Assembly: GCA_029820295.1 (NCBI GenBank)
Contig: JALGVA010000002.1
Span: 51,481 to 115,480, forward strand
Direction of reading: 5' to 3'
DNA length: 64,000 nucleotides
From: Candidatus Zipacnadia bacterium
GTDB taxonomy: Bacteria > Armatimonadota > Zipacnadia > Zipacnadales > UBA5352
Below the pieces are notes generated by a model. The model searched no databases. It saw nothing but the letters and a program-made list of their open reading frames with translations, and was not told the DNA's origin. The position numbers and the translations under genes are program-made. Position 1 is the stretch's first letter; every line of letters begins with the position of its first letter. Below are positions 1,599-37,564 of this stretch, piece after piece.

Positions 1599-1774
1599 GG
1601 CGTGTCCTCCTCACGGCCACGTCGGCCGCGCGGACAGATTGTCCGCACGCAGGCAGATTCCCTCCCGCGCCGCGCCGGAGGACATCGCGCCCGCGCCGAC
1701 GAAGCAGTCGGCGCAGGCGAACTGCTCGGCAGCATGTCGCACCATCCCGAACGTACACACTCCGGAGGTCTGAC
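1599..1774. promoter_or_regulatory. Divergent intergenic region between the left-edge glycosidase and the aminotransferase operon
   Basis: This 176-bp spacer separates two divergently transcribed genes, so promoters for both directions should lie here. It carries an AGGAGG ribosome site on the minus strand next to 1598 and GGAGGT at 1764-1769 on the plus strand. I cannot name convincing -35/-10 boxes in it. Confidence 0.4.
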
Positions 1775-3055: not shown

Positions 3056-3075
3056 ACGAAGCAGAGGTGACCGTG

Positions 3076-6504: not shown

Positions 6505-6508
6505 GACG

Positions 6509-9500
6509 ATGCGCAGGGCCGTGCCGAGCACCCTCATCACGTGCTCGCTGCTAATCTCCTGGACGTGCGGCGCCGCGGAGATCGACATCTCGGCGGCGCC
6601 GCAGCCCACCGCAGACACCACCTTCCTGCTCGATTTCGAGCAGCCCGACCTGGCCCCGGTGGTGGCCGCCGGGGAGGGGGGGCCGCCTGCCGGGCAGGTC
6701 GAGGTCGCCGAGGGACACCGGGGCGTCGGCGCCGACTTCACCGGGTCGCGAGCGCTGGAGTACCCCGCGCGCGGCAACATCGACCTCAACCAGGGGACGC
6801 TTGAGCTGTGGATCAACACCCATTGGGGCTCGCGCGGCCGCACGCGGTCGCACTACCTGGTCTCCCACCCGCTCGACTGGGGTATCCCCGGCCACATGCG
6901 CCTGTGGTACTGGGCCCCCAGCGAGACCTGGGGCGTGCTGCGCTTCGACTACCACGCGGTCAGCTCGGCCGGCGACGGCTACATCTTCGCGGCGTGGCCC
7001 GGCGATGGCTGGCACCACATCGCCGCCCGCTGGCATAGCCGTGATGGCATCGCGCTCTACATCGATGGCGTGAAGGTGGCGGAGAAGCGCGGGACCTGGG
7101 AGCCACTGCCGCCCGCCGGGGGCCTGCTGACCTTCAGCAACGCGGACAACCCGGCCGACGCCGTCATCGACGATGTGCGCATCCGCAGCACGCCCTCGTA
7201 CGCGCCAGACGAGCCGGCGCTGGTGCTGGACGTGGGTGACGCCGCGATGCTTCAGGCCGACGCGGGCGCGGTCCCGGTGCGTGTGATGAACCGGCGTGAG
7301 GAGCCCGCGACGGGCGCCCTGACGGTCGCCGTGCGCGACTACTTCGGCGAGCGCGTGGCCGAGACTGTCCAGCGGCTCGAGCTTCCCGGCTTCTCCGAGC
7401 GCGTGCTCGACGTCGAGTTCCCGGTCACGCGCCCGAGCCGCTACTTCGTGGCGCAGGTATCGCTGCGCGACGGCGCCGGGGAGGCGATCGTCGAGCGCGA
7501 GGACATCGTGACGGTCAGCGCGCTCAGCGGGCCGCGCAAGGCCATCTGCCTCGACGGCGAGTGGGAGCAGGCCGACGGCGTGTGGGGCGAGTTCACTCCG
7601 CCCGCGGACGGGTGGTCGCCGGTCGTCCTGCCGCGCAAGGAGCCCAGCTTCCCGACGCACCTGCGCTGGTACCGGCGGAGCTTCGAGGTGCCCGCAGAGA
7701 TGGGCGAGCGCGTGCGGCTGGTGCCGCGGCATGTCAAGCAGCGGGCGCGCTGGTGGGTGAACGGCATCGAGGTCGGCGACAGCGAGTACGCCTACGTGCC
7801 CTACAGCTTCGATATCACCGACGCGATCCGCCCGGGCGAGCGCAACGAGATCCTGGTGGCGGTGATGGACTGGGTCGAGTGCGCCCGTCCCGACCTGCAG
7901 GCGCATCTGGCGACCACGCACCCGGGCGACCGCGGTGGCGTCGAGGGCTGGCCCTTTATCAAGCCGTGCGGCGGCGAGGTGCTGCCGGCGGGCATCATCG
8001 AGAGCGTCTGGGTTTACGGCCACGGCGGCGTGTGGGCCTCGGACGTGGCGGTGGTAACCTCGACCCGCAACAGGACCATGACCGTGCGCGGGGTCGTGCA
8101 CAATGACTCCGGCCGGCAGCGGCAGTGCACCGTCGGTAACGTCGTGTTCGACGGAGCGGAGCAGCCGCTGGCGTTACCCGAGTGGGCCGGCAATCTTCCG
8201 GGGGGACAGAGCCGGCGGTTCGAGGTCACGGCACAGTGGGATCAGCCCCGCCTGTGGTGGCCGGACGATCCGCACCTGTACCGTCTGCAGACGGATGTGC
8301 AGGTCGGTGACGCGCTTGAGGACTCAGTCAGCACGCGCTTCGGCTTCCGCGAGTTCCGGCCCGAGGGCGACGTGTTCATGCTCAACGAGGTGCCCATGCA
8401 CCTGTTCGCGGCGGCGTCATGGCCGAACACGGTGCCCATGGGCTGGCCGGGCCGGGTCAGCGACCGGTGGGACGCCACGCGCGTGCTCTTCGAGTCGCTG
8501 CGCGAGGCCGGCCACGATATCTTCCGCGCCCACACCGAGCCGTGGAGCGACCTGCTGGCCGACCTGTGCGACGAGACCGGCATGATGCTGGTGACCGAGG
8601 GCGTGATGAGCTCGATCCCCGGCAAGTACAACTGGAGCCACCCGGACCTCATGCCCAACATGGAGGCGTTCTACCGCCTGTGGCCGCGCCGGGAGATGAA
8701 CCATCCCGCACTGGTGATCCGCAGCATCGAGAACGAGGTCGGTTACCTGCTGCAGGAGCGCATCATGGGCGACCAGGAGACCATCGCGCGCGTGCGCGAC
8801 GGCTTCGTCGAGTGCGGCCGCATCGTGCACGAGGCCGACCCGTCCCGGCCCATCATGTACGAGGGCAGCGGCCCCGTGTTCTACGACGTGGCCGACATCT
8901 ACAACAACCACTATCCGGGCGACGAGTACCGCTGGGCCTGGTACCCCAACGCCTCCTGGTGGCCGGGCCGGCAGATGGACATCTACTTCACCAGGGACTG
9001 GATGTGGGACCGGCGCAAGCCGCTCTACATGGGCGAGTGGGGCTGGTTCCCCGGCGGGCAGGACCAGTTCGCGGCCTACATGGGCCCGGCGGTCTACCGC
9101 CCGGGCGTGACGCTGGGCCTCGCCAAGTCGGTGCTGTGGGAGATGGGCATCGCGGGCATGCGCTACTACGGCGTCTCGGCCAACTGCCCCTGGAACGCGC
9201 TCGAGGGCACGCGCTTCGAGCGCTTCACCACCGACCGCCCTCGGCACCGCGTCGTGCGTGAGGGCTTCGCCAAGCTGAAGGTCGCCATCCGCGAGCGCGG
9301 CAGCGTCTACTTCGTGGGCGACGACGTCACGCGGACGGTGTCGGCGTACAATGACACGCTGCAGGTTCAGGACTTCTCGGTGCGCTGGCGCCTGCTGGTC
9401 GATGGCGCTGTGACCGACGCGGGCGAGTGGTCGGCGACCGTGCCGCCCGCAGGGACGACCCGCCGGGTCATCGTCGCCGACGTGCCGCGCGATCTCGACG

Positions 9501-11431
9501 GCGTCCACGAAGGCAGCTTCGAGGCGACGTTGCACGTCGCGGGCGAGCAGGTGTCCTCCGCCGACAGCCCCTTCCGCGTGTTCCCGCACATCACGCGCCG
9601 GCACGATCTAAGTGTGCTGGCCGCCGGCCTGCGCGCGACCACCATGCGCGGGCTGCAGCGTCTGGGCGTCGCCGTGCGCGAGCTGGGAGAGCTGAGTGCA
9701 CTCCAGGACGGCGCGATGTCGCTCATCATCGGGCCGCATGCGGGCCTCACCGCGGAGGACGCGCCCGCGCTGCGGAGCTTCGTCGAGCGCGGCGGGCAGC
9801 TCGTGGTCCTCCAGCAGATGAGCCGGCCGGCGTGGCTGCCGCTCGACGCGGAGCTTGCGGCCGATGAGCCGATGACCCGATGCTTCGCGTCCTGGCGCGA
9901 CAGCCCGCTGCTGGACGGGCTGGAGGAGCGCGACCTGTCGTTCTGGCCGGACGACCACGTGGTGGCCGAGGGCGGCTGGCGGCGGCCCGAACAGGTGCGC
10001 TACCGGGCGGTCATGGAGGGCGGGGTGGGGCTGGGCCTGTCGCCGCTGGCCGAGGCGCGCGTTGGCGCCGGGCGCGTCTGGCTGGTGCACCTGCCGCTGT
10101 GGGCCAGTACGCCGGTCAACCCGGTCACCGAGCGGGTGGGGCACAACCTGCTGGACGAACTGGGGCGCTTCGAGCCACGTCCGCCGGGCACGGTGGCGCT
10201 GCTCGACGAGCCACATGGCGACGTGGAGGCGCTGCTGGCCGACGTGGGCGCGCACCCGACGTCTCTGACCGGACGGCTGTCCGACGCCGACCTGTCCGGA
10301 CACGCGTGCGTGGTCGTCGAGGCCGCGCCGGAGAGCATGGCCGAAGCGGTCGCGAACACGGAGCGACTGCGGGGCTTCGTCGCCGCCGGGGGCACCGTGT
10401 GGCTGCACGGCGTCCGGCCCGAGAGCGCCGACGCGGTGGCCGAGCTGTGCGGACGCAGTGTGCGGCTGGAGGGGCTGTTCGAGCTGCCGTTGACGCTGCT
10501 GCCGCATCCGCTGACCGCGGGCATGACCGAGGCGCAACTGCACTGGTCGGTGGACCCCGCCAACTTCCGCCCGGTCAGGGCCGACATGGTGGACTGGATG
10601 GTTGACGTCGCGGGCGGGCGCGCTGTCACTGAGCCCGCGGCGCTGGTGGAGGCGCCGCACGGCAGCGGGCGCTTCCTGATCGATCAGCTCCACTGGGAGA
10701 CCGAGTTCCGCAATCGCACTCGAGCGCGCGAGTTCGTCGCCGGGTTGTGCGCCAACCTGGGCGTCGAGCTGTCCCCGGTCGAGCCGCCGGAGCCCGCAGT
10801 CACCTTCGTGGCGCACTTCGACGGCAGCGCGGTCGCCGACTACGCCGCCGGCAGGGCCACGCCGGAGCCGATCGAGGACATCGCCTTCGTCGAGGGCAAG
10901 TTCGGCCGGGCGGTGGACTTCACCGGAACCGAGGACCTGCGCTACCAGCAGCGGCTGAACCTGGATATCAACAGCGGCACCATCGAACTGTGGTTCAACG
11001 GCAGCGCGGCGGACGACCAGATCCTCTTCCGCACCACGCCGGGCCAGTTCAACGACGCCGACTTCGTCGCGTTGTGGACCTGGCAGGGCCTGCTGCGCCT
11101 CGACCACCACTCGCTGCCGGGCGGCCTGGGCAGCGGCTACATGGTGCACAAGTTGGAGCTGTCCCCGGGCTGGCACCACATCGCCGCCACCTGGGACCAC
11201 AGCAGCGGCGCCGCGCTCTACGTAGACGGCCAGATGGTCGCCCGCAAGGAGGGCGGCTGGGAGCCCACGGAGGCCCGCTTCCGCCACTTCACGCTCAGCG
11301 CGCCGCATCGCCCCGTGACCGGGGCGATCGACGAGCTGCGCATCCTGACCTACGCGCTGACCCCCGAGCAGATCGCCGCCGACGCGGCCGCGACTGAGCC
11401 CTTCCCGGCCCCACACGACGGAGGCCCCTGA
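6509..11431 (+). CDS. Giant secreted GH2-family glycosidase with LamG domains at both ends and two amidotransferase-like domains
   Basis: 1640 aa, far above the usual 600-1000 for GH2. Start ATG 6509 with GGGAGG 8 nt upstream, 4 bp after the previous stop. Order: signal peptide (1-22); LamG/concanavalin-A-like domain (~40-230, with WHHIAARWHSRDGIALYIDG); GH2 sugar-binding jelly roll (~344-470, WYRRSFEVP and YVPYSFDITDAI); Ig-like domain; TIM barrel (~615-930) with the GH2 acid/base Glu743 in SIENEVG and probable nucleophile Glu843 in YMGEWGW; two class-I-amidotransferase/ThuA-like Rossmann domains (~1035-1160 and ~1230-1330); second LamG (~1430-1620, WHHIAATWDHSSGAALYVDG). It most likely hydrolyses beta-linked galactose, mannose or glucuronic acid residues. 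The terminal LamG domains suggest glycan anchoring. Confidence 0.85.
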   Translation: MRRAVPSTLITCSLLISWTCGAAEIDISAAPQPTADTTFLLDFEQPDLAPVVAAGEGGPPAGQVEVAEGHRGVGADFTGSRALEYPARGNIDLNQGTLELWINTHWGSRGRTRSHYLVSHPLDWGIPGHMRLWYWAPSETWGVLRFDYHAVSSAGDGYIFAAWPGDGWHHIAARWHSRDGIALYIDGVKVAEKRGTWEPLPPAGGLLTFSNADNPADAVIDDVRIRSTPSYAPDEPALVLDVGDAAMLQADAGAVPVRVMNRREEPATGALTVAVRDYFGERVAETVQRLELPGFSERVLDVEFPVTRPSRYFVAQVSLRDGAGEAIVEREDIVTVSALSGPRKAICLDGEWEQADGVWGEFTPPADGWSPVVLPRKEPSFPTHLRWYRRSFEVPAEMGERVRLVPRHVKQRARWWVNGIEVGDSEYAYVPYSFDITDAIRPGERNEILVAVMDWVECARPDLQAHLATTHPGDRGGVEGWPFIKPCGGEVLPAGIIESVWVYGHGGVWASDVAVVTSTRNRTMTVRGVVHNDSGRQRQCTVGNVVFDGAEQPLALPEWAGNLPGGQSRRFEVTAQWDQPRLWWPDDPHLYRLQTDVQVGDALEDSVSTRFGFREFRPEGDVFMLNEVPMHLFAAASWPNTVPMGWPGRVSDRWDATRVLFESLREAGHDIFRAHTEPWSDLLADLCDETGMMLVTEGVMSSIPGKYNWSHPDLMPNMEAFYRLWPRREMNHPALVIRSIENEVGYLLQERIMGDQETIARVRDGFVECGRIVHEADPSRPIMYEGSGPVFYDVADIYNNHYPGDEYRWAWYPNASWWPGRQMDIYFTRDWMWDRRKPLYMGEWGWFPGGQDQFAAYMGPAVYRPGVTLGLAKSVLWEMGIAGMRYYGVSANCPWNALEGTRFERFTTDRPRHRVVREGFAKLKVAIRERGSVYFVGDDVTRTVSAYNDTLQVQDFSVRWRLLVDGAVTDAGEWSATVPPAGTTRRVIVADVPRDLDGVHEGSFEATLHVAGEQVSSADSPFRVFPHITRRHDLSVLAAGLRATTMRGLQRLGVAVRELGELSALQDGAMSLIIGPHAGLTAEDAPALRSFVERGGQLVVLQQMSRPAWLPLDAELAADEPMTRCFASWRDSPLLDGLEERDLSFWPDDHVVAEGGWRRPEQVRYRAVMEGGVGLGLSPLAEARVGAGRVWLVHLPLWASTPVNPVTERVGHNLLDELGRFEPRPPGTVALLDEPHGDVEALLADVGAHPTSLTGRLSDADLSGHACVVVEAAPESMAEAVANTERLRGFVAAGGTVWLHGVRPESADAVAELCGRSVRLEGLFELPLTLLPHPLTAGMTEAQLHWSVDPANFRPVRADMVDWMVDVAGGRAVTEPAALVEAPHGSGRFLIDQLHWETEFRNRTRAREFVAGLCANLGVELSPVEPPEPAVTFVAHFDGSAVADYAAGRATPEPIEDIAFVEGKFGRAVDFTGTEDLRYQQRLNLDINSGTIELWFNGSAADDQILFRTTPGQFNDADFVALWTWQGLLRLDHHSLPGGLGSGYMVHKLELSPGWHHIAATWDHSSGAALYVDGQMVARKEGGWEPTEARFRHFTLSAPHRPVTGAIDELRILTYALTPEQIAADAAATEPFPAPHDGGP

Positions 11432-11648
11432 GCGCGCAGAGCGCCGTGACCGGTTTCATCCGCCGCGGAACCGTTCCCGCCGCAGAGGCGTCCAAGTGCC
11501 CGCAGAGGAATGCGCAGGCGGCGCGCACAGAGGAGCCTCGGTCGGCCCGCGCGAAGCCACCGGCTGAACCTCAGGAGCGTCGGCCCCACCCGGTGGCGTG
11601 ACCGCAGGGGCGCGCCGCGTTGATCTCACACGCCGGGATGTGACACCC

Positions 11649-13712
11649 ATGGTCGGACGCAATCGGCGATTCTCGCCGGATGGCTGCCGCGCACTGCGCG
11701 CACTGATCACCACCTGTCTGCTGCTGGCCGGCGCGGTCGCCGCGTGCGCGGCGCCCGCAGGCATGGTGTCGATGCGCGATTGCCGGTCGCCGCGCTGGTT
11801 CGGCAACGGCGCCAGTGTCGTGTTCGTATCCGACCACTACGGGCAGACCGACCTGTTCGTGTGCGACGGACAGGGGATGAACGTGCGCCGACTGACCGAC
11901 GACGCCGCCGAGGAGGCGGCGCCGGCGTGGTCGCCCGACGGCACGCGCATCGCCTTCGAGAAGGTGGTGGACGGCAACCGGGAGATCTGCGTCATCAACG
12001 TCGATGGCACCGACCTGCGCATGCCCGCGCCCGACCCGGCCGAGGACCGCGGTCCGGCCTGGGCGCCGGATGGCAGCCTGATCGCATTCTGGTCCGAGCG
12101 CGGCGGGGACGTGTGCGTCTGGTCGGTGCGGCCCGACGGCGCCGATCTGCGCCGGCGCATCGACTCGCGCGGCGATGACGTGGACCCGGCGTGGTCGAAT
12201 GATGGCGAGCGCATGTGCTGGGCCTCCACCCGCGATGAGGCGGAGGGCCGCTGGCGCATCTTCACCGGCCCGACGTGGCGCCTGCGCAGCGCCGACCTGC
12301 ACGGCTACTTCCCGCTGGGTTCGCGCGCTCCCGCGTGGTCACCCGACGACACGCGCATCGTGGTGGTCTGCGACGGCGACCTCCAGCTCGTGGGGCTTGA
12401 GGACCGCAGTGTGCTGCGCCTCACCGCCGACCCGGCGGAGGACGCCTGCCCCGCATGGCTGCCCGGCGGCGACCGCGTCGGCTTCCACTCCATGCGCGGC
12501 GGCACCGCCCAGCTCTACACAATGGCGACCGACGGCACCGAGCCCGAGCGCTTCGACGCGTGGGTGCCCGGTGAACCCGAGCCCGTGGTCGCCGCCGAGC
12601 CGGTGGCGGACGAGGATCTGCTGTTGATCCCGCGCGCGCCCGGCGGCGCCAGCTCGCCCGGGCCACTGCTGGTCGCGCGCCCGCAGTCCGGCCAGGGCAC
12701 GCAGGCGAGTGGCGGCGCGCCCAGGCCCGGCGAGACCGCCACGGGGGCGCTCAGCGGCCCGCCGGTCGATCCGCGCGCGCGGCGGGCGATCATCGATCTG
12801 CTGGGCATGTTGCAGGAGGGCAGGCAGCCGGACGCGACCTGGTACATGGAGAACCTGGACCTGCTGATCGGGGCCGCCACCGGGCCTCCGGGGACGATGC
12901 AGGACGTCGTCGGGATGTTCAGCGGCGGCGAGACCGGCATCGGCGATCCGGACGCGACCGACGCGCTGGCCGGCGTTATCGGTCAGATGGTGGGCGGCAC
13001 CGTCGGGGGCGTCAACGTCGCCGCGCTGGTGGCCGAGCCGGGCGTGCGCCGCGGCCTGACCAGCGTCTTCGGCATGCTGGGCGGACTCTTCCGCTCGGTA
13101 TTCGGCTCCGGCGGCGAGCGCCGGCACGAAGTCCGGGCGCGCGTGCCCTACGAGGAGCAGCGCTCGCGGCTGGTGCCGCTGACCCTGTCGGATATCTGGA
13201 AGACCGGCGCGGCCAAGTGGGGCCCGTGGGTATTCGTCAGCGGGAAGAACCTCAACACCGCGCAGATGGATCGGGAGGCCAACCGGACCGTGGGGCGCGA
13301 AGCGCGCGATGACTGGAACGGGCGCATCCTCACCATCCGGCACGGTGAGCGCGACCTCAACATCACCTTCGACCCGAACACCCAGGTGGTGCGCGTGGGC
13401 GCGGGCGATGGGGAGATGTACCTCGCCGAGGGCCGCCAGGTCGATGCCACTGCGGCGCGCCGCCGCGCGCTGCGACTTCCGGAGGCGGTGGACAACCTGC
13501 TCGACTACCCGCCCACGCAGCGCCTGGCGCCCTGCCACGTGTGGGTCGGCACCTGGCGCATCGAGGTCACGCAGTACTCGATCGTCGCCGACAACTTCGC
13601 GTCCACGTCAGGCGGCACCGCAGTGCTGTCCGACAACGGGCAACTGCTGTGGCGCCATCCCGACGGCAGCGGCCTGCTGTGGCGGGCGGAGGACTATCCG
13701 CCACTGGGCTGA
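11649..13712 (+). CDS. Exported TolB-like PD40 beta-propeller protein with unknown C-terminal domain
   Basis: 687 aa from ATG 11649. An in-frame GTG at 11598 would add a basic leader and is less likely, because the hydrophobic signal segment (about residues 16-34, ending AGAVAAC) fits the shorter form. AVAAC could be a lipobox. Residues ~40-310 contain at least five PD40/TolB blades, seen as SPDGTRIAFE, APDGSLIAFW, SNDGERMCWAS, SPDDTRIVVV and LPGGDRVGFHS. A Pro/Gly-rich linker follows (~325-385), then a Gly-rich helical stretch, and from ~490 a domain with GRILTIRHGERDLNITFDP and EMYLAEGRQVDATAARR. That pattern is weakly reminiscent of copper-amine-oxidase-N-type repeats. Possible roles are a periplasmic scaffold or sensor; there is no catalytic motif. 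It follows the GH2 gene by 217 bp and may have its own promoter. Confidence 0.8.
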   Translation: MVGRNRRFSPDGCRALRALITTCLLLAGAVAACAAPAGMVSMRDCRSPRWFGNGASVVFVSDHYGQTDLFVCDGQGMNVRRLTDDAAEEAAPAWSPDGTRIAFEKVVDGNREICVINVDGTDLRMPAPDPAEDRGPAWAPDGSLIAFWSERGGDVCVWSVRPDGADLRRRIDSRGDDVDPAWSNDGERMCWASTRDEAEGRWRIFTGPTWRLRSADLHGYFPLGSRAPAWSPDDTRIVVVCDGDLQLVGLEDRSVLRLTADPAEDACPAWLPGGDRVGFHSMRGGTAQLYTMATDGTEPERFDAWVPGEPEPVVAAEPVADEDLLLIPRAPGGASSPGPLLVARPQSGQGTQASGGAPRPGETATGALSGPPVDPRARRAIIDLLGMLQEGRQPDATWYMENLDLLIGAATGPPGTMQDVVGMFSGGETGIGDPDATDALAGVIGQMVGGTVGGVNVAALVAEPGVRRGLTSVFGMLGGLFRSVFGSGGERRHEVRARVPYEEQRSRLVPLTLSDIWKTGAAKWGPWVFVSGKNLNTAQMDREANRTVGREARDDWNGRILTIRHGERDLNITFDPNTQVVRVGAGDGEMYLAEGRQVDATAARRRALRLPEAVDNLLDYPPTQRLAPCHVWVGTWRIEVTQYSIVADNFASTSGGTAVLSDNGQLLWRHPDGSGLLWRAEDYPPLG

Positions 13713-27749: not shown

Positions 27750-30179
27750 TCAGGCCCCGCCGCCCGCCAGATCGCGCGTCTCCACCAGCTTCCAGCTCTC
27801 ACCGCCATCGGGCGACATGATCACCGCGCGGCGGTTGCCCCAGTGGTCGTTGCGATAGAACCAGTGCGTGGACCAGTAGTCGTAGGAGACGAACAGCCGC
27901 CCGCTCCGGTCGATGGTCAGACGGTGGTAGAAGACGCTGTACTCCGAGAACGCCGCGCGCACCAGCACCCGCGGCTCCTCCCACGGCTGCCCCGGGCGCT
28001 TGCGCTGGTAGGCGAGCGTAGCGTGCGTGCTGTTCGGAAAAGGCTCGCCCGAGCGCCACAGGCGGAAGACCACGTGCAGTGTGCCGTCAGGGCCACAGAC
28101 GAAGCCGATGTAGGTCATGTTCAGGCCCTCGCCCGCGCTCACCGGCTCGGTCCAGCCCGCGCCGGCATCGTTGGGCTGCAGCGAGCGCGCGTATTGGAAG
28201 GGCCGCCCGTGGGTGCCCACGAGCACGTGCAGGAAGCCCTCGCCATCCATGGTGATGCTGGGCGAGTTGTGCACGTCGTTGGGCGGCGGTCCGTATCCGA
28301 TCAGCACGGGTTCTCCCAGCTCACCGGTCTCGCGGTCATAGGTGACGCAGTAGGTGGGCACGCCCGGGACCTCGACCTCCGGGTCGGTGGCCTCGCCCCA
28401 CGCCACGTGGACCTTCGTGCCGCGCGACACCACCGACGACGGGATGCCCGAGTGCGCCGACAGCCCGATGCAGGCGCGCGTGATCAGGATCGGCCGGCCG
28501 ATCTCGATGCGGCCATCGACCTTGCGTGGCACGAACAGCTCGAGGTCGTTGAGGCTGCGCCAGCGCAGGTTCGGGTCGCGGGCGGTGCGGCGGAAGCGCA
28601 CGAGCGGCGGCGGGCCGTCAGGGATGTTGTGCCCGGAGAACTGCTCGATGTCCAGCCCGCCGCGATCGCCGGGCAGCTCATAGGCCGCGAAGGTGCGCCC
28701 GCCGTCCTGCGAGTGCAGCAGCGCGTTGCGCCCCGCGCAGGTCGCAGGCAGGTAGATGTCGCCGTCGCGGTCGAAGGCGATCTTGGTCGAGGCCAGGCCG
28801 ACGGCGCTGCCCTCGAAGGCCTCGGGACGGGAGGTGATCGCGTCCTGCAGGCCCAGGGGCGTCCACTGCCCCTCGCGCCAGGTGGTGATGTCGCCGCCGG
28901 TGCGCATGAACGGTTGGTTGTCAGCGCCGAAGTAGACCTGGTACTGGGTCGGGTAGTCGGGCAGGTAGCCGAACTGGGCGTTCTCGTGCTCGTAGGGATG
29001 TAGCTCGATGGGCATGTCGAGCAGCCCGGTGGCGGGCGCCTCGCCGGCGCGCGCGATGAGCGTCGAGTAGGTCGTGACCTCCGGCGTGTCGGCCGGCGTC
29101 ACCCGCACATGGCACAGGTGCGGCCCCTCGCCCTCGGGCACGGTGAAGCGCACGGTCACCGGCGTCAGCCCGCGCGCGTCGAGGGTCACGCGCTCGGGCG
29201 AGACCTCGACCGGCCACTCCCCGTCGGAAAACTCCAGGCTGAGCGCGAACTCGCGCTCAGCCAGCGCGTTGTTCTGAACCTGCAGCTCGATCTCGCCCTC
29301 AGTACCGGGCTCGCCGTAGACCGTGCGCTGATAGGGAGTGAGCAGCCAGCGGTTCTCGATGAACGCGAACCACGAGGCCGGGTCGGGCGACCAGTAGCAG
29401 GCGTTGTAGATCGGCTCGGCGTCGCCCCACCGCGTGAGGCCGTCGGCGTTGATCGTCGCCCGCATGGCCGGGAAGCGCAGCTCCCACGGGATCGCGTCGC
29501 GGTGCTCACCGGCGGAGATGGTCACCGACGCGTTCCCCTCGGCATCCGGCGTGAGCGTGCCCATGAGCGTGTCGTCGCCCGCGTACAGCTCAACCGGCCC
29601 GGCATCGACCGGCAGCCGAGACAGCTCGACTGCGAACTCGCCCTGGCGCGGGTGAAAACACACCACGCCGGGCCTGTCCGGGCTCTCAAGCACGATGGGC
29701 TCCTGATGGCGCTCGTCACGGTGCCCGCGCGCGGTCTCGATCAGGTAGCGCGGGCAGTTGGTGCGGAAGCCCCAGACCATGTTCTGGCCGTAGCGGTCCC
29801 GCGACACGGTGATGTTCAGCGCGTAGATGCCGGGGCGATCGACCTGCGCGCGCAGCGTGACGGTCGCGGGCGGCCCCAGGCCACTGCCCACCGCCGCGCC
29901 ATCGTCCGGGATAAACTCCTCAGCCAGCACCCGCCGGTCGGGCCCGGCCAGTATCGCGCGCAGCTCGCTCGTGGTGTTGCGCGCGTTGCGGTCGCGCTTC
30001 ACGACCTCGATTACCAGCTCTCCGGATTCGGCCAGGAAGTACACGCCTCCGCAGCCGCCGATGAGCGGCTCGAAGTCAGGCTTGGCCATGGCGACCTCCT
30101 CCGCCGGCTGAGCGGCGCAGAACTGAGATGCGGCGCAAGCGAGCAGCATGAGGGCAAATGCGGATGACCTCGTGGGCAT
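27750..30179 (-). CDS. Exported BNR_4-type beta-propeller protein (sialidase-fold)
   Basis: 809 aa. ATG 30179 with AGGAG about 9 nt upstream; an upstream in-frame start would add a very basic leader and is rejected. Signal peptide 1-23. Residues ~30-320 are beta-rich of unknown type; ~315-420 looks like an NEW3/Ig-like domain (EIELQVQNNALAEREF, PVTVRFTVPEGEG). The rest (~440-809) is a propeller with SQDGGRTF and SPDGGESW Asp-box-like turns and the BNR_4 hallmark HNSPSITMDGEGFLHVLVGTHG. Some BNR_4 proteins are polysaccharide lyases (PL24/25-like ulvan lyases), so lyase activity is possible. Upstream of the duplicated CBM gene, probably one transcript; divergent from the membrane/A2M/VanW operon. 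Confidence 0.82.
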   Translation of the reverse strand: MPTRSSAFALMLLACAASQFCAAQPAEEVAMAKPDFEPLIGGCGGVYFLAESGELVIEVVKRDRNARNTTSELRAILAGPDRRVLAEEFIPDDGAAVGSGLGPPATVTLRAQVDRPGIYALNITVSRDRYGQNMVWGFRTNCPRYLIETARGHRDERHQEPIVLESPDRPGVVCFHPRQGEFAVELSRLPVDAGPVELYAGDDTLMGTLTPDAEGNASVTISAGEHRDAIPWELRFPAMRATINADGLTRWGDAEPIYNACYWSPDPASWFAFIENRWLLTPYQRTVYGEPGTEGEIELQVQNNALAEREFALSLEFSDGEWPVEVSPERVTLDARGLTPVTVRFTVPEGEGPHLCHVRVTPADTPEVTTYSTLIARAGEAPATGLLDMPIELHPYEHENAQFGYLPDYPTQYQVYFGADNQPFMRTGGDITTWREGQWTPLGLQDAITSRPEAFEGSAVGLASTKIAFDRDGDIYLPATCAGRNALLHSQDGGRTFAAYELPGDRGGLDIEQFSGHNIPDGPPPLVRFRRTARDPNLRWRSLNDLELFVPRKVDGRIEIGRPILITRACIGLSAHSGIPSSVVSRGTKVHVAWGEATDPEVEVPGVPTYCVTYDRETGELGEPVLIGYGPPPNDVHNSPSITMDGEGFLHVLVGTHGRPFQYARSLQPNDAGAGWTEPVSAGEGLNMTYIGFVCGPDGTLHVVFRLWRSGEPFPNSTHATLAYQRKRPGQPWEEPRVLVRAAFSEYSVFYHRLTIDRSGRLFVSYDYWSTHWFYRNDHWGNRRAVIMSPDGGESWKLVETRDLAGGGA

Positions 30180-30445
30180 GATCTCTCTCCTGATCCGGCC
30201 TTCGCGCGGACAGCAGCGTTTCCTTCGCGACGGGCAGGCCCGCATCCTGCCCACACGGTGGCGCCTCGAGTCCCCAGCTCAGCCTGCCTCGAGCGCGCGG
30301 CTCAGAGGGAGCGCCGGGACCCGCGTGGAACTATGATGGGCACGCCGTGTTGTGGTACTGCAAAGAGCGTCCCTCGGGTGTTTGCTGCGCGAACCCCTTA
30401 AGAGAGCGCTGCGCGCTCTCCATGATGGCTGCAGGAGGGATCGGC
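30180..30445. promoter_or_regulatory. Divergent intergenic region upstream of the membrane protein/A2M/VanW operon
   Basis: A 266-bp spacer between divergent units. It contains the perfect hairpin at 30402-30420 only 25 bp before the chosen GTG start and a GGAGG ribosome site at 30434-30438. A somewhat AT-richer stretch around 30335-30365 could hold a promoter, but no boxes are convincing. Confidence 0.35.
30402..30420. repeat. Perfect hairpin GAGAGCGC-TGC-GCGCTCTC
   Basis: 8-bp perfect stem with 3-nt loop, very close in sequence to the hairpin at 20350-20366. If transcribed it lies in the 5' leader of the downstream operon. Confidence 0.5.
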
Positions 30446-32077
30446 GTGCAGACGACACCGGCAGCCGTCGCACTGGTCGCAGCCGCCGTTGCGCTCGTGT
30501 ATGCGAACCTCCAGGCCCGCGTCGCGCGGGCCGCGGGCGCGGACGACTCGGAGGGGCCACCCCGCGCATTGCTGATGTGGTATGCAGCGCTCGTGGTCGC
30601 GGGCTTCCTCGCGACTCTCCCGACGCGCCCCCCGTTCGCGCCCGGACTGACCTTCGGCTGGGGTTTCCTCATCGGCGGCCTGGCGGGAGTCTACGCCGCC
30701 TTCGAGGTCGCGCGCTCGTGGCGCAACGGCGCCTGGCTGGCGCGCGCCATCGGCCTCGTCGGCGCCGCCACCGCGGGCCCGGCCCTCATCCTCCTGCTCT
30801 TCGCCGGCAATCCCGACCACGCGCTCATGGGCTGCGCGCTGGGTGCGGTGCTGCTGGCGCTCATCTGGCGCCTGTGCCTGGGGCCGCTGGCCGCGCGTGA
30901 GCCGTCCGGCGACGAGGCGGCCAGCCAGACGCGCGGCGCCGACCTGTTCGCGCTGGTGGCGGTGGCGACGGCGGTCGCCACTCGCCTGGGCGTGGAGCAC
31001 TTCGGAGGCGACGCCGCCGGCCCTCACGGCGCCCTGCGCGCCCTGCCGCCGCTGATCGCCGGCCTGTCGGCGCTGGCGCTGATCGTGCCCTCAGCGTTGG
31101 CGGCCCCCGGACGAGTCGGTGGGGCGCGGCTGCGCGCGCTGCTGGTCGGGCTGGTGGCGGCGGCGATCACGCTGGTGGTCGTGGTGGTGCTGGCGTGGAA
31201 GGTTCTGGGCGTATGGGCGCCGGCGCTCGCGGCGCTGACCGGCTTCGCGGGCTTCGCGCTGATCGCCTGGCTGGCCTGCCCGATCGAGGAGGACGGTGGC
31301 GCGGAGGCGCGCCGCCCGGTGCTCGAGGTCTTCGGCATCGCGCTGGTGGCGCTGGCGATGGTGGCCGTAGGCTTCAAGCTGCTGCACGGTTACGGCGAAT
31401 CGCTGGCGCTGATGGCGGGCATCGCGCCGGTCATGGTGGTAGCCGCGGCGGCAGGGACGGATCGCCGGAGCATGTCGGCGCCACTGCTGGCGGCGGGCTA
31501 CGCGCTGGTGCTGCTGCTCGCGACCTACCGGCTGCTCCTGGAGCATCTCCCGGGCGCCGAACCGCTGCAGATGCAGGCACACTACGACTATTTCGCGCTG
31601 GTGCTGGGGGCGGCGGCCGTCTTCGGGCTGCTGGCGTGGGCCGAGATGGCGCGCCGCGTGGCCGCGCGCGGCGACGAGACCGAGGCCGTGCGGACGCTGA
31701 TCGGCCGCGCGCCGGGGCCGCTGATCGCGGTGGTGCTGGCGCCCATGCTGCTGCTGGTGCTGTGGGGTGAGGGCGCGGTTGGGGGGCTGCTGGTCGGGCT
31801 GGTGATCGCCGAGCTGGCGTGGATGATGGTGGTCGCGTGGAGCACCGGCGCGGATCGCCTCGTGGCCCTGTCGGCGGCCCCGCACGCGGCGCTGGTGGCA
31901 GTGGCGCTGGTTGCGGCGCAGCTCTCTCCGCGCGTTGCGGAGCTGGTGGAGCTGAGCCGGGCGTGGAAGGCCGGCGTGGTGTTGATCGTCGCCGGCGTAG
32001 CGGTGGTGTGGCTGGTGCTGGCGGCGGTGCTGGGCGCGCGGCGGCCGACTGCGGCGGGCGGTGAGAGCGATGCGTGA
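30446..32077 (+). CDS. Polytopic membrane protein of unknown family, first gene of the A2M/VanW operon
   Basis: 543 aa from GTG 30446, supported by GGAGG 7 nt upstream; ATG codons at 30421/30424 lack a ribosome site. The sequence is mostly hydrophobic Ala/Leu/Val segments separated by short Arg/Asp-rich loops; I count roughly 13-15 possible membrane helices (for example AVALVAAAVALVYANL, LLMWYAALVVAGFLATL, ALLVGLVAAAITLVVVVVLAW). Charged, maybe functional, residues sit in a central loop around YRLLLEHLPGAEPLQMQAHYDYF. I do not recognise a family and see no transporter signature. Its stop overlaps the A2M start (ATG at 32070, TGA at 32075), indicating translational coupling, so it may provide the membrane platform for the A2M protein. 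Confidence 0.75.
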   Translation: MQTTPAAVALVAAAVALVYANLQARVARAAGADDSEGPPRALLMWYAALVVAGFLATLPTRPPFAPGLTFGWGFLIGGLAGVYAAFEVARSWRNGAWLARAIGLVGAATAGPALILLLFAGNPDHALMGCALGAVLLALIWRLCLGPLAAREPSGDEAASQTRGADLFALVAVATAVATRLGVEHFGGDAAGPHGALRALPPLIAGLSALALIVPSALAAPGRVGGARLRALLVGLVAAAITLVVVVVLAWKVLGVWAPALAALTGFAGFALIAWLACPIEEDGGAEARRPVLEVFGIALVALAMVAVGFKLLHGYGESLALMAGIAPVMVVAAAAGTDRRSMSAPLLAAGYALVLLLATYRLLLEHLPGAEPLQMQAHYDYFALVLGAAAVFGLLAWAEMARRVAARGDETEAVRTLIGRAPGPLIAVVLAPMLLLVLWGEGAVGGLLVGLVIAELAWMMVVAWSTGADRLVALSAAPHAALVAVALVAAQLSPRVAELVELSRAWKAGVVLIVAGVAVVWLVLAAVLGARRPTAAGGESDA

Positions 32078-35000
32078 GCGCGGCCCGTGGCGGACGGTGG
32101 CGCTGGCGGTGGCCGTGGCGGCGGTGGGCGTGGTGCTGGCGTGGCTGGTGATGGGCGAGACCCCGCGCGGGAATCTCATGGGCGTGGTCATCGCCGAGGA
32201 GTTGGGCATCCCCATCCCGGATGCCAGGGTCACTCTGACCCCGGCCCACGGGCGCGGCAGTCAGTTGCGGATCAGGACCGACGCTGAGGGTCGCTTCCGC
32301 TTCGACGACATTGTGACCGGCGGCTGGCGGCTCATGGCCTCGGCGCAGGCGCACACCATGACCGGCCCGCGGCGCGTACAGGTCGATGAGGGCGCGACCA
32401 CGCGGCTGCGCGTGGAGCTGCCCCCGGTCGAGCCCTTCATGAGCCTGTCGATCGCCAACGAGGTGTTCACGCCCGACGAGGAGCCGCGGATCCGCGCCCG
32501 CGGCTTCACGTCGCTGGGCGCGCTCGATGTCTCGATCTACCGCATCCGCGCCGCGGAGATGCAGCAGGGCCGCCCGACGCACCTCGCGGGGCTGCTGGGC
32601 ATGCGCGATCCCTCGCCCGACCGGTGGCCGCTGGAGGGCAGCGACCGACTGGAGCGCGTCAGCCGCCGGACAATGCCCATCACCGGGCGCGAGGCCGAGG
32701 GCATCTTCACCATGCGCCTTGACCTGCCCGGGCTGAAGCCTGGTGTCTACGTGGTGGCGGTCGAGAACGAAGAGCTGCAGCGGATCGCGGTGCTCAACGT
32801 CACCGACCTGGCGCTGGTGTGCAAGTGGTCGGCGCAGGCCCTGCTGGCATGGGCCGTGGACATCGCCAGCGGCGAGCCGCGCGAGGGCGTGCAGATCACC
32901 GCGGTCGCCGACGCCCGGCCGGTTGGCGAGGGCATCACCGGTCCCGATGGCCTGTTCGCGCTGGAGATCGCGGACGCGCCCGACTACGGTCGCGTCACGG
33001 TGACCGCGCGCGCCGGCGACGCCGTCGCGACCGTGGAGACCTGGTCCTACGGCCCGCGCGAGGGTGACGCTCACCGGGTCTATTGCTACACCGACCGCCC
33101 CGCCTACCGCCCCGGCGACCAGGTACACTACAAGGGCGTCACGCGCGCGGTGGACGGCGAGGCGTACAGCGTCCCCGCCGGCGTCCCGGTGCAGGTGCAG
33201 GTGCGCGATGACCTGGACAACCTCATCCACACCGCGAACCTGCGCACCGGCGACTTCGGCTCCTTCGACGGCACACTGCAGCTCCCTGACGCGGCGATCC
33301 CGGGCGTGTACGCGCTCAAGACCTCCATCGCTGGCGAGCCGCATTACAGCGACTTCATCGTCGCCGAGTACCGCAAGCCCGAGTGGGAGGTGAAGGTGAC
33401 GACGCCGCGCGACCGCTACGTGCGTGGCGACGAGATCGAGGTCACCGCCGAGGCCACCTACTTCTACGGCGCGCCCGTGGCCGACGCGTCGGTCGAGTAC
33501 CACGTGACCCGCAGCGAGCAATGGTACTGGCCCGAAGCCGACGAGTGGGACTGGGGCGACTACGACTGGTACGACGACTACGGTGAGGGCGGCGAGGTCG
33601 TGGCCTCGGGTTTCGGCACCACCGACAGCGCCGGGCGCCTGGTCTTCACCGTGCCGACCGTGATGGAGGAGGCCGAGGGCGACGAGGGCTGGCGCATGCC
33701 GAGCGACTACAGCTACCGCATCGAGGTCGAGGTCACCGACCCCAGTCGTCACTCGGTGAGTGCCTCGCATCGGGTGAGCGTGGTGCAGGGCGAGTTCCGG
33801 CTGCAGGTGGAGGCCGACCCCTCGATCCTGCAGGTCGCGGAGACCACGCAGGTCACCATCAAGGCGACCGACCACGACGGCGACCCCGTGCGCGCCAGCG
33901 GCGAGGTGCGGCTCGACCTGACCGAGTGGCGCGGCGCCCAGGAGCGCTTCGAGGCGCGCGAGCACCTCGCCTGGGCCACGGACGAGGCCGGGACGACCAC
34001 GGTCGGCTTCACGCCCGCCGAGGAGGGCAGCTACCGGGTGCTTGCCACCGCCACCGACGCGCGCGGCAATGCGATCGCCGCCGGCGAGTGGCTGTGGGTG
34101 ACGCGCGAGGCGCACTTCAGCTACAACTACCCCTACGGCGAGCTGGACCTGGTGGCCGACCGGCGCAGCTACGAGGAGGGCGACACCGCGCGCATCCTGG
34201 TCAACACCGAGCTGGCGCCGGTCACCGCGCTGCTGACCGTGGAGAGCGACACCATCCGCAGCCATCGGCTGATCGAGCTGCCGGCCACCTCGACCATGGT
34301 CGAGGTGAAGCTGGAGCCGCAGTGGGCGCCCAACTGCTGGATCGGCGTCACCTTCGTGCGCGACAAGCGCTTCGTGATGGATGAGCTGCCGGTGCGCATC
34401 GCGCCGGTGAGCCGGAAGCTGGAGGTGACGGTGGCGAGCGACCGCGAACAGTACGGGCCGGGCGAGGACGCCGTGTTCACGGTGCATGCTACCGACCCCG
34501 ATGGCCGCGCGGCGCGGGCCGAGGTGTCGCTGGCGGTGGTGGACGAGGCGCTGTTCGCGCTCTATCCGGACCGCACGCGCGCGATCGTGGACTTCTTCTA
34601 CCCGCGCCGCGGCCACTACGTGCAGACCGACTTCTCCTTCCCGACGGTCTACCTCGACGGCGCCGACAAGGGCGCGCTGGCGCAGATCGCGACGCGCAGC
34701 CGCTTCGTGGACACCGCGTTGTGGATGCCCTCGGCGGTCACCGACGCGTCCGGCGAGGCCACTTTCCGCTTCGTCATGCCCGACAATCTCACCACCTGGC
34801 GCGCCACCGCACGCGCGCACACCCTCGACACCACCGTCGGTGAGGCCACGCACACCGCGCTGTGCACCCGGCCCTTCCTGGTGCGCCTGGCGGGGCCGCG
34901 CTTCATCACACAGGACGACCGCCTGCGCCTGGCCGCCATCGTGCACAACCGCACCGACGGGCCGCTGCAGGCCGACGTGGGTCTCAGGGCCGATCTGCTG

Positions 35001-36788
35001 GACGTCAGCGGCGGGTCGCAGTCCGGGCAGGTGGCGCCGGGCGAGGCGCGGCGCTTCGAGTGGGAGGTGTCCGCGCCCGCCGTGGGCGACGCCACCGTGC
35101 GCGTGGCGGCGAAGTCCGGCGAGTACGAGGACGCCATGCAGACCACACTGCCCGTGCACCCGCGCGGCCGGCATCGTGTCGAGCAGCGCGCGGGCGTCGT
35201 GCCCTCACGCCAGGTGGAGTCACTCCCCATCCGCGCCGACGCCATCGCGGGCGCATCGGCGCTTACCGTGCGCCTGACGCCCTCGCTGGCCGGTGCGATG
35301 CTCGGATCGCTCGACTACCTCGCGGCCTATCCCTACGGCTGCATTGAGCAGACCACCTCCGCCTTCCTGCCCGACGTGATCATCGCGCGCATGCTCGACC
35401 GGCTCCACCTCGACGCGCCGGGCCTGCGCGAGCGCCTGCCGAAGATGGTGCAGAACGGGCTGCTCAAGATCTACGGCTACCAGCGCAGCGACGGCGGCTG
35501 GGGCTGGTGGGGCTACGATGACGCCGAGCCGTGGATGACCGCCTACGTCGTGTTCGCGCTGCACCAGGCGCGGCAGGCCGGCTATGAGGTCAGTGCGCCG
35601 GTGCTGGGCGACGGCGTGGGGCGGCTGGCGGAGCTTTACGTGAACACCAGGAGCGATGACCACGAGCGCGCCTGGGCCGCGTACGTGCTGGCCCTGGCCG
35701 GACGCGCCGATGTCGTGCGGCGGGGGCGCTCGGGCGAGGGCGTGAAGGAGCTGATCGCTGCCGCCGAGCGCGGGCCCGCGGATGTGCGCGCGCTCACCTG
35801 CCTGGCGCTGCACGCCATCGGCGAGACCGTGGCGGCGCGCGATCTGCTCGACCGGCTGTGGCGCAGCGCCGAGCAGTCGGAGGACATCATCCACTGGGAG
35901 GCGGGCGGCAGCGACTACTGGCGTTCGCCCGACTCGCAGACCACGGCGCTGGCGCTGACGGCGGTCTGCCGGCTCACGCCCGATGATCCGCGCCTGACCA
36001 GGGTCGCCCGCTGGCTGCTGGTCACCCGTCGGGGCGATCACTGGTACTCCACGCGCGACACCGCGTTCGTGCTTTACGCACTGGCCGAGTACCTGCCGCT
36101 GACCGGAGAGGCCACCCCGGACTTCACCGCCACCGTCGAGGCGGACGGCGAGCAGCTCCTGTCGCGGCACTTCACGCGCGCGGACGTTGTCCGACCCGAG
36201 GTGGTCGTGCGCGTGCCTACTGAGCACCTGACTCCCGGCTCCACAGTCGAGGTCGCGATCGACCGCGAGGGTGCGGGACGGCTGTACTACACGGTGGAGC
36301 TGGACCAGTACGTGCCCGAGGATCTCGACCGGCCGCTGGTGAGCGGGACGGGCATCACCATCCAGCGCAGCTACCGCCTCGTGACCACGCGCGCGGAAAC
36401 AGGGGAGACGCTGCGCCGCGAGGCGGTGGGCGAGGCGCGGACGCAGTTCCGCAGCGGCGAGGTGATCGAGGTCACGCTGACCGTGCACAGCGAGCGCGCG
36501 CACGAGTACATGATGCTCGAGGACCCGCTGCCCGCGGGCTGCGAGATTCTCGACCGCGGCAGCGTGCCCATCTGGGAGTGGGACTGGTGGTGGGCCGACC
36601 AGATCCCGCGCGATGACCTGATGGCCTTCGCGCTGCGCGACCTGCCGGCGGGCACGCGCACGCTCAGCTACCGCATGAAGGCGCAGGTGCCGGGGGAGTA
36701 CACCGCGATGCCGCCGACCGCGTGGAACATGTACGATCCGCGCGTACGTGTCACGGGCGCCGCGGACGAGGTGGTTATCCTGCCGTAG
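32070..36788 (+). CDS. Bacterial alpha-2-macroglobulin family protein with intact thioester motif
   Basis: 1572 aa, normal for bacterial A2Ms. ATG 32070 overlaps the upstream stop by 8 nt. Residues ~8-28 are a signal anchor without a lipobox. Residues ~35-110 look like a carboxypeptidase-regulatory/MG-like domain; MG2-type YTDRPAYRPGDQVHYKG lies near 340; an acidic-aromatic loop (EWDWGDYDWYDDYGEGG) near 490-510 may be a bait-like exposed segment; the A2M core ALWMPSAVTDASGEATF...LTTWRATARAHT is near 885-920. The thioester GCIEQ has Cys1091 and Gln1094, followed by the alpha-toroid (GGWGWWGYDDAEPWMTAYVVFAL). A2Ms trap proteases in the periplasm. In proteobacteria the partner is PBP1C; here it is a membrane protein and VanW instead. 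Confidence 0.94.
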   Translation: MRERGPWRTVALAVAVAAVGVVLAWLVMGETPRGNLMGVVIAEELGIPIPDARVTLTPAHGRGSQLRIRTDAEGRFRFDDIVTGGWRLMASAQAHTMTGPRRVQVDEGATTRLRVELPPVEPFMSLSIANEVFTPDEEPRIRARGFTSLGALDVSIYRIRAAEMQQGRPTHLAGLLGMRDPSPDRWPLEGSDRLERVSRRTMPITGREAEGIFTMRLDLPGLKPGVYVVAVENEELQRIAVLNVTDLALVCKWSAQALLAWAVDIASGEPREGVQITAVADARPVGEGITGPDGLFALEIADAPDYGRVTVTARAGDAVATVETWSYGPREGDAHRVYCYTDRPAYRPGDQVHYKGVTRAVDGEAYSVPAGVPVQVQVRDDLDNLIHTANLRTGDFGSFDGTLQLPDAAIPGVYALKTSIAGEPHYSDFIVAEYRKPEWEVKVTTPRDRYVRGDEIEVTAEATYFYGAPVADASVEYHVTRSEQWYWPEADEWDWGDYDWYDDYGEGGEVVASGFGTTDSAGRLVFTVPTVMEEAEGDEGWRMPSDYSYRIEVEVTDPSRHSVSASHRVSVVQGEFRLQVEADPSILQVAETTQVTIKATDHDGDPVRASGEVRLDLTEWRGAQERFEAREHLAWATDEAGTTTVGFTPAEEGSYRVLATATDARGNAIAAGEWLWVTREAHFSYNYPYGELDLVADRRSYEEGDTARILVNTELAPVTALLTVESDTIRSHRLIELPATSTMVEVKLEPQWAPNCWIGVTFVRDKRFVMDELPVRIAPVSRKLEVTVASDREQYGPGEDAVFTVHATDPDGRAARAEVSLAVVDEALFALYPDRTRAIVDFFYPRRGHYVQTDFSFPTVYLDGADKGALAQIATRSRFVDTALWMPSAVTDASGEATFRFVMPDNLTTWRATARAHTLDTTVGEATHTALCTRPFLVRLAGPRFITQDDRLRLAAIVHNRTDGPLQADVGLRADLLDVSGGSQSGQVAPGEARRFEWEVSAPAVGDATVRVAAKSGEYEDAMQTTLPVHPRGRHRVEQRAGVVPSRQVESLPIRADAIAGASALTVRLTPSLAGAMLGSLDYLAAYPYGCIEQTTSAFLPDVIIARMLDRLHLDAPGLRERLPKMVQNGLLKIYGYQRSDGGWGWWGYDDAEPWMTAYVVFALHQARQAGYEVSAPVLGDGVGRLAELYVNTRSDDHERAWAAYVLALAGRADVVRRGRSGEGVKELIAAAERGPADVRALTCLALHAIGETVAARDLLDRLWRSAEQSEDIIHWEAGGSDYWRSPDSQTTALALTAVCRLTPDDPRLTRVARWLLVTRRGDHWYSTRDTAFVLYALAEYLPLTGEATPDFTATVEADGEQLLSRHFTRADVVRPEVVVRVPTEHLTPGSTVEVAIDREGAGRLYYTVELDQYVPEDLDRPLVSGTGITIQRSYRLVTTRAETGETLRREAVGEARTQFRSGEVIEVTLTVHSERAHEYMMLEDPLPAGCEILDRGSVPIWEWDWWWADQIPRDDLMAFALRDLPAGTRTLSYRMKAQVPGEYTAMPPTAWNMYDPRVRVTGAADEVVILP

Positions 36789-36805
36789 CCACGGGACGAG
36801 CGCTG

Positions 36806-37564
36806 ATGCGCAGCAGGCTGTCGTGGACAATCGGCGCGGCGTTCGCGCTCGCGATCGTGGCGCTGGTGGCGATGCCGCCGGCCCAGGTGGTGGTGGGCAG
36901 CTACCGCACGCCCTTCGACGGGCGCAGCGAGCACCAGCGCCTGAACGCGTTGCGGGCCGCTCAGGCGCTCGATGGCGCGGTCATCGCGGCCGGCGCGACG
37001 CTCTCCTTCAACCGCACGGTGGGCCCGTGGACCGCCGACCGCGGCTACCTCAAGGCGCCGGTCAGCTTCGGCGGTGAGATCGAGCCGGCGTGGGGCGGCG
37101 GCGTCTGCCAGACCTCGACCACGCTCTTCAACGCGGCGCTGCTGGCGGGGCTGGAGATCGTCGAGCGCCATCGCCACCAGTGGGCGCCGCACTACGCGCC
37201 CCTGGGCCGCGACGCCGCGGTCGCGCAGTACGACATCGACCTGCGCATCCGCAACCCGCACCCGTGGCCGGTGCGCATCGAGGCGCAGCCGGCGGCCGAC
37301 TCGCTGGGCATCGTGCTGCTGGGACGCCGCGCCGGGCCGCTGGCGGCGGTGCACACACAGGTGCGTGCCGTGGTACCGCCGGGCGAGGTGCTGCGCATCG
37401 ACCCCGAGCTGCTGCCCGGCGAGTGCCACCGCGTCGTGCGCGGCCGGCCCGGCTACCGGGTGCTGGTTTACCGCCGGTCCCTCGACGCCGCCGGTGGTGG
37501 CCGCGAGCTGGTCTCGGAGGACCGCTACCCGCCCATGAACCGCCTGGTGGTGGCCGGCCCGTAG
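36806..37564 (+). CDS. VanW family protein
   Basis: 252 aa. ATG 36806, 17 nt after the A2M stop, with a weak ribosome site. Residues 8-25 are a signal/anchor helix, so the domain faces outside. The VanW core is clear: SFNRTVGPWTADRGYLKAP (67-85), WGGGVCQTSTTLFNAALLAG (with Cys101), ERHRHQWAPHYAPLGRDAAV and YDIDLRIRNPHPWPVRI. VanW is named from vancomycin-resistance clusters but its biochemical role is unknown; it often occurs with peptidoglycan-binding (PG_binding_4) or G5 domains, absent here. Co-occurrence with an A2M in one operon suggests a cell-envelope protection or remodelling role. Confidence 0.92.
   Translation: MRSRLSWTIGAAFALAIVALVAMPPAQVVVGSYRTPFDGRSEHQRLNALRAAQALDGAVIAAGATLSFNRTVGPWTADRGYLKAPVSFGGEIEPAWGGGVCQTSTTLFNAALLAGLEIVERHRHQWAPHYAPLGRDAAVAQYDIDLRIRNPHPWPVRIEAQPAADSLGIVLLGRRAGPLAAVHTQVRAVVPPGEVLRIDPELLPGECHRVVRGRPGYRVLVYRRSLDAAGGGRELVSEDRYPPMNRLVVAGP

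Follow-up and report, generated by a model that had tools for sequence, protein, structure and literature searches.

An operon of Armatimonadota encoding a thioester A2M, a VanW protein and an apparent distant relative of membrane pyrophosphatases

The window analyzed here (the whole 64,000-nucleotide stretch of DNA from Candidatus Zipacnadia bacterium) contains three adjacent plus-strand genes encoding a polytopic membrane protein (MEM), an A2M and a VanW protein. This raises the question of whether the three genes form a single unit and what such a unit might do. The original prediction, made from the DNA alone, was that they do, and that the unit serves in cell-surface defence or envelope repair.

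Gene order and its conservation

MEM (543 amino acids, approximately 16 to 17 helices) is encoded from a GTG start at 30446 to a TGA stop at 32077, and a strong ribosome-binding site, GGAGGG (30434 to 30439), lies 6 nt before the start. The second gene (ATG at 32070 to TAG at 36788) encodes a type I bacterial A2M of 1,572 amino acids. Its start overlaps the MEM stop by 8 nt (32070 to 32077), an arrangement predictive of translational coupling. The third gene (ATG at 36806 to TAG at 37564), which follows after 17 nt, encodes a membrane-anchored VanW protein of 252 amino acids (PF04294). The three genes, the overlap and the spacing were all found on the plus strand where the original prediction had placed them. 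Upstream of MEM is a divergent gene for a BNR-repeat protein (27750 to 30254, minus strand), and a heparinase II/III-like gene lies 139 nt downstream of VanW. Because of these two flanking genes, the unit was taken to comprise MEM, A2M and VanW alone. A scan for promoter and terminator consensus sequences at the operon found nothing, such a scan being uninformative in a G+C-rich genome, and the operon had no match in the PADLOC defence library.

A survey of A2M gene neighbourhoods had been proposed with the original prediction. When it was carried out, the order was neither unique to this genome nor were the genes usually apart, and the data from 201 Armatimonadota genomes ruled out an accident of one genome. 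A profile search detected MEM in 86 of the 201 genomes, its carriers belonging to more than 20 families. With a second profile applied to the same genomes, a short VanW gene was found downstream on the same contig and strand for 66 of 87 MEM genes. The gap between MEM and VanW in these 66 pairs was 4,666 to 5,222 nt (median, 4,788 nt), which just fits an A2M. Indeed, A2M lay directly 3' of MEM in 29 of the 30 loci that were read, and the remaining locus stops at the end of its contig. Of 89 pairings, a count that includes repeat retrievals of a locus, 85 had a MEM stop that overlapped the A2M frame or was separated from it by no more than 10 nt. Among 61 relatives, several genera have the three genes grouped and in this order, as do nine GTDB loci whose full context was available. 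Two single-contig genomes, of 3,437,861 and 5,231,762 bp, also carry the operon. Of the named contigs with all three genes, the closest were from Chthonomonadaceae, Fimbriimonadaceae and other Armatimonadetes. Fifteen short-VanW loci had no MEM match in the first search; 7 of these carried a more divergent MEM at the A2M.

The order also was found in a complete genome of 4,724,791 bp (L297) related to a Gloeobacterales bin. The bin itself, a MAG, has the three genes as well, making two Gloeobacter-type cyanobacterial genomes in all. Since L297 shares the order, the unit has crossed phyla or predates them. This recurrence within and outside the phylum bears out the view that the three genes are one unit.

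Partial arrangements were observed too. MEM and A2M occur without an adjacent VanW in L215, L216, L217, L221 and L223, A2M and VanW occur without MEM in L040 and L209, and VanW and MEM occur with no A2M nearby in L218 (G138, 9566 to 11856), where VanW overlaps MEM by 4 nt. All three pairwise links therefore occur alone, which speaks for a three-way relation. Five loci contain a solitary short VanW (L199, L200, L202, L203 and L208). In several genomes VanW lies apart from A2M, so at the gene level the two need not go together. In one further locus (L219 in G200, 7975 to 10958), MEM stands without A2M or VanW in its vicinity; there, the MEM stop overlaps the start of a gene for a 515-amino-acid protein with several membrane helices, to which no Pfam family matched.

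The A2M and VanW proteins

Pfam domain analysis of the A2M revealed MG2, bMG3, bait-region, A2M, TED and bMG10 domains above the cut-offs, the complete set of a bacterial A2M, together with a carboxypeptidase regulatory-like domain. The N-terminal carboxypeptidase regulatory-like domain, which is of Ig type, is encoded at 32181 to 32420 (PF13620; E, 5e-14), the bait-region domain at 34143 to 34562 (PF07703; E, 7e-22), and the C-terminal, receptor-like bMG10 domain at 36351 to 36740 (PF17973; E, 2e-23), all on the plus strand. Inspection of the TED sequence identified the thioester motif Cys1091-Ile-Glu-Gln1094 within YPYGCIEQ (35340 to 35351, plus strand). The best PDB matches were Escherichia coli YfhM and human CD109. 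The protein carries an N-terminal hydrophobic membrane helix, and no lipobox cysteine was found in this segment. In an alignment of 12 VanW- or MEM-linked A2Ms (alignment A3), the thioester cysteine was present in 11, and the bait region likewise was kept in 11. The linked A2M of locus L035 (G052:C2) has the altered motif YPYSSVEQ and so has lost the thioester cysteine; its MEM and VanW are intact. Type I bacterial A2Ms trap proteases via bait cleavage and the thioester, and classically they are encoded beside PBP1C (PMC5764988, PMC3328433). The features listed above suggest that the present A2M would also trap proteases after cleavage of its bait region.

No protein of this genome scored above the PBP1C cut-off. 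The best class A penicillin-binding protein reached 334 bits against a cut-off of 494 and is encoded on another contig than the operon. The predicted absence of a penicillin-binding protein at the operon was thus confirmed, with no PBP1C adjoining it. Elsewhere in the survey, locus L303 (G044:C44) contains a classical A2M (a 1,922-amino-acid frame, 1180 to 6948) and, directly behind it, a PBP1C whose score exceeds the curated cut-off (6626 to 8986). Both arrangements of A2M, with PBP1C and with VanW, exist in Armatimonadota. The genome under study also encodes a second A2M (L047; G000:C23, 3018 to 7511), which is 32% identical, has the motif GCAEQ, and is flanked by AhpC/TSA-type and AMMECR1 proteins and by no wall enzyme.

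The VanW protein contains an LD-transpeptidase-type catalytic domain at residues 47 to 168 (36944 to 37309, plus strand; PF04294; E, 4e-42; 143 bits). The candidate nucleophile, Cys101 in the motif GGGVCQ (37106 to 37108), and His124 (37175 to 37177) were invariant in two alignments of VanW proteins (n = 17 and n = 40); Asp136 (37211 to 37213) accompanies them. A C-terminal G5 domain is encoded at 37337 to 37561, its Pfam match being weak (E, 0.002) and its profile match against the PDB having an E value of 9e-8. The AlphaFold2 model (mean pLDDT, 91.4) comprises a membrane helix at residues 6 to 21, the VanW domain at approximately 28 to 176, and G5 at 178 to 252. When this model was compared with the PDB, no match to the catalytic fold stood out, and the G5 part alone matched (4fzq: Foldseek E, 4e-6; VIA-align Z, 7.4; rmsd, 5.0; 76 residues aligned). 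A PG4 domain was not found in the 252 residues, which hold VanW and G5 only.

The original prediction had credited VanW with no known biochemical role, which is outdated. Two reports describe VanW proteins of Clostridioides difficile as LD-transpeptidases (2024), the second such family (PMC12729407, PMC11986978), with a triad of Cys, His and a small residue and a fold unlike that of YkuD enzymes (PMC12729407). Certain VanW proteins show no LD-transpeptidase activity (PMC12729407). Given its domain and conserved residues, the present VanW is probably a cell-wall cross-linking enzyme of the LD-transpeptidase type. The protein does not qualify as a glycopeptide-resistance VanW of the vanB and vanG cluster type: it scored 43.9 bits against a cut-off of 365 for the NCBIfam equivalog NF033128, and no other van genes lie next to it. 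A longer VanW paralogue (approximately 525 to 550 amino acids; in this genome L034, G000:C16, 3847 to 5424) is found in nearly all surveyed genomes and is likely the housekeeping copy.

The membrane protein and membrane pyrophosphatases

MEM had been considered an unknown membrane protein. None of its family members scored above any Pfam or NCBIfam cut-off, which ruled out a known transporter family, and PF03030, the membrane pyrophosphatase (M-PPase) family, matched none of 48 members as single sequences at E values up to 1. Matches to YLATT and to the P5A-ATPase hairpin (E, approximately 0.002) were dropped as weak and scattered. One member gave a subthreshold NCBIfam match to the Na+-PPase (E, 0.004), and the eight best Foldseek matches of the MEM structure model, itself of low confidence (pLDDT, 51.6), were all M-PPases. 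Because both results pointed to M-PPases, homology was tested directly using hhalign, with M-PPase sequences collected from the same phylum by PF03030 and with MEM profiles cleaned of M-PPases.

Against 54 M-PPases, the MEM profile aligned with a probability of 98.2% and a score of 119.9, collinearly over 432 columns, and against 30 M-PPases the probability was 96.6%. A further hhalign comparison gave 97.7%, and two disjoint subsets of MEM gave 96.9% and 93.8%. Thirty-nine other polytopic families, taken from the same loci as controls, reached at most 0.9% probability and a score of at most 21; the scores were at most 17 for reversed alignments, 22 for column shuffles, and 35 for block shuffles. 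Unlike the hhalign E values, which refer to a single comparison and are not database calibrated, a profile search of MEM against all PDB sequences is calibrated; its best match was the M-PPase 8b37 over the corresponding region (E, 1e-4). VIA-align of the low-confidence model returned M-PPases of three species as its first 21 entries (Z, 13.6 to 9.2; top row 6qxa_D, rmsd 4.0, 245 residues aligned), the next family having a Z of 6.7. The region concerned, MEM residues 1 to 456 (30446 to 31813, plus strand), is collinear with M-PPase residues 10 to 631. Taken together, these analyses make it very nearly certain that MEM is a distant homologue of M-PPases.

Further inspection of the alignment indicated that the catalytic apparatus is gone. 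M-PPases have 66 polar or charged residues with a conservation of at least 97%, and MEM keeps none of them, 31 falling in deleted loops and 35 being replaced. The losses include the pyrophosphate- and Mg-site Asp and Lys residues (DVGADLVGK, DNVGDNVGD, GDTVGDPFKD and others) and the gate residues, which are taken as catalytic in this family. MEM is accordingly predicted to lack pyrophosphatase activity and to be catalytically dead. The ancestry of the protein has thereby been found. Within the MEM family, identity is low (median, 19%), and the helices contain conserved residues of its own: G317, R362, G388, G451 and R505. The same genome has a normal M-PPase elsewhere (G000:C130). Genuine M-PPases of some other Armatimonadota (G056, G069, G070, G080, G089, G096 and G103) match PF03030 in two parts within one frame of approximately 1,000 to 1,130 amino acids and have a large mid-pump insertion near model position 298. 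According to a review, no known ion pump is homologous to the M-PPases (PMC9408878), and we found no earlier report of such a relative in the limited set of literature searched. If the assignment is true, this apparent noncatalytic relative would be the first distant family next to M-PPases.

A proposed role and its relation to known systems

As a best guess, with function read from sequence, we uphold cell-surface defence or envelope repair. Specifically, we propose that the operon encodes an inner-membrane envelope-protection module with an A2M trap, VanW for wall repair and MEM as a platform, a reading that we hold at even chances. The A2M, anchored by one helix, would expose its bait region and thioester in the periplasm and covalently trap proteases that get through the envelope. 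VanW would be anchored next to the A2M and attached to the wall via its G5 domain; it would remake peptidoglycan cross-links by a Cys/His reaction of the LD-transpeptidase type, such that lost wall is repaired while the A2M neutralizes the protease. MEM would be a former M-PPase that no longer binds pyrophosphate or gates ions, and most likely would serve as a membrane platform holding A2M and VanW together in a physical complex. We favour this role because MEM is made first and is coupled to A2M, but it is the default reading of a dead enzyme, and MEM may transport or bind something new. The fuller picture, in which an M-PPase relative stripped of catalysis and gating is the membrane hub of an immune-like envelope system coupling a complement-type thioester trap to LD-transpeptidase repair, is more tentative and falls somewhat short of an even chance.

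It is possible, if on balance doubtful, that MEM uses the M-PPase scaffold for active transport or for carrying lipids, moving for example an isoprenoid lipid or an ion and so powering or supplying the periplasmic pair. MEM retains the helix arrangement across most of the M-PPase core, the family has conserved helix residues of its own, and its presence in 86 of 201 genomes implies selection. However, the pyrophosphate-site and gate residues of M-PPases all are lost, the family conserves few polar residues, and so low an identity would be unusual for an enzyme or pump. The A2M could instead be a large scaffold at the cell surface, with VanW doing housekeeping work on the wall, and the operon would then serve growth or surface architecture rather than defence. 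Record titles suggest that the carriers are free-living and environmental, and the A2M of L035 does without its thioester cysteine. A scaffold would need neither thioester nor bait region, yet both are kept in 11 of 12 linked A2Ms, and the VanW paralogue of approximately 550 amino acids is the better housekeeping candidate; we consider this reading unlikely.

It is a little less likely still that VanW links the A2M, or some other protein of the envelope, to peptidoglycan by a covalent bond, making the operon a wall-anchored protease trap. LD-transpeptidases, including some YkuD enzymes acting with lipoproteins, do tether proteins to peptidoglycan (PMC12729407), VanW comes directly after A2M, and an A2M without a lipobox makes another anchor plausible. 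Against this, the A2M has its own N-terminal hydrophobic helix, its alignment contains no conserved C-terminal Lys tail of the Lpp type, and tethering by VanW-type proteins was not reported in the literature searched. Least probable by far is that the order reflects inherited co-location without joint function. The genes are separated in some genomes, but where the operon occurs its order and overlaps persist at minimum identities of 13% (MEM) and 22% (A2M), more than 20 families of the phylum and the genome related to the Gloeobacterales bin share it, and the flanking genes differ from locus to locus.

If the envelope-protection reading is true, MEM-A2M-VanW would be a new class of A2M partner complex, and the operon suggests a protective module that has taken in a retired ion pump as one of its parts. 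This subgroup of VanW proteins gains a defined genetic partner not long after the discovery of a first activity for VanW. The present VanW shares with LdtCd4 and LdtCd5 of C. difficile a VanW domain, the conserved Cys and His, and an N-terminal membrane helix, but it has G5 in place of PG4, belongs to another host group, and is partnered by an A2M. MEM is related to the H+- and Na+-PPases (PF03030) by distant homology that runs collinearly through most of the membrane core; unlike them, it is encoded in an envelope operon, is approximately 200 residues shorter, and lacks the cytoplasmic catalytic loops, which are deleted.

Two A2M systems invite comparison. The MagABCDEF operon of Pseudomonas also is a multigene A2M operon with a membrane partner, MagB, which stabilizes and locates its type II A2M (PMC5764988). 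That requirement for MagB offers a model by which a platform role may be given to MEM. The Pseudomonas system differs in that MagD has no thioester, MagB has one helix, and there is neither a VanW nor an M-PPase relative. The other is the A2M-PBP1C pair (yfhM-pbpC; ECAM, Sa-A2M), in which a thioester A2M likewise is encoded beside a peptidoglycan synthesis enzyme, and which has been proposed to defend the periplasm, the A2M trapping proteases and PBP1C mending peptidoglycan (PMC3328433, PMC5764988). Here a VanW cysteine protein replaces the penicillin-binding protein, the A2M lacks a lipobox, and an M-PPase-like polytopic protein is added. The pairing of A2M with a peptidoglycan enzyme is thus a design that recurs with unrelated partners, PBP1C in one case and VanW in the other, and its recurrence makes the long-standing, little-tested hypothesis of A2M and wall repair testable in a second system. 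On the best reading, by analogy, the operon would work like A2M-PBP1C, with another wall enzyme and, in addition, a polytopic partner of pump ancestry.
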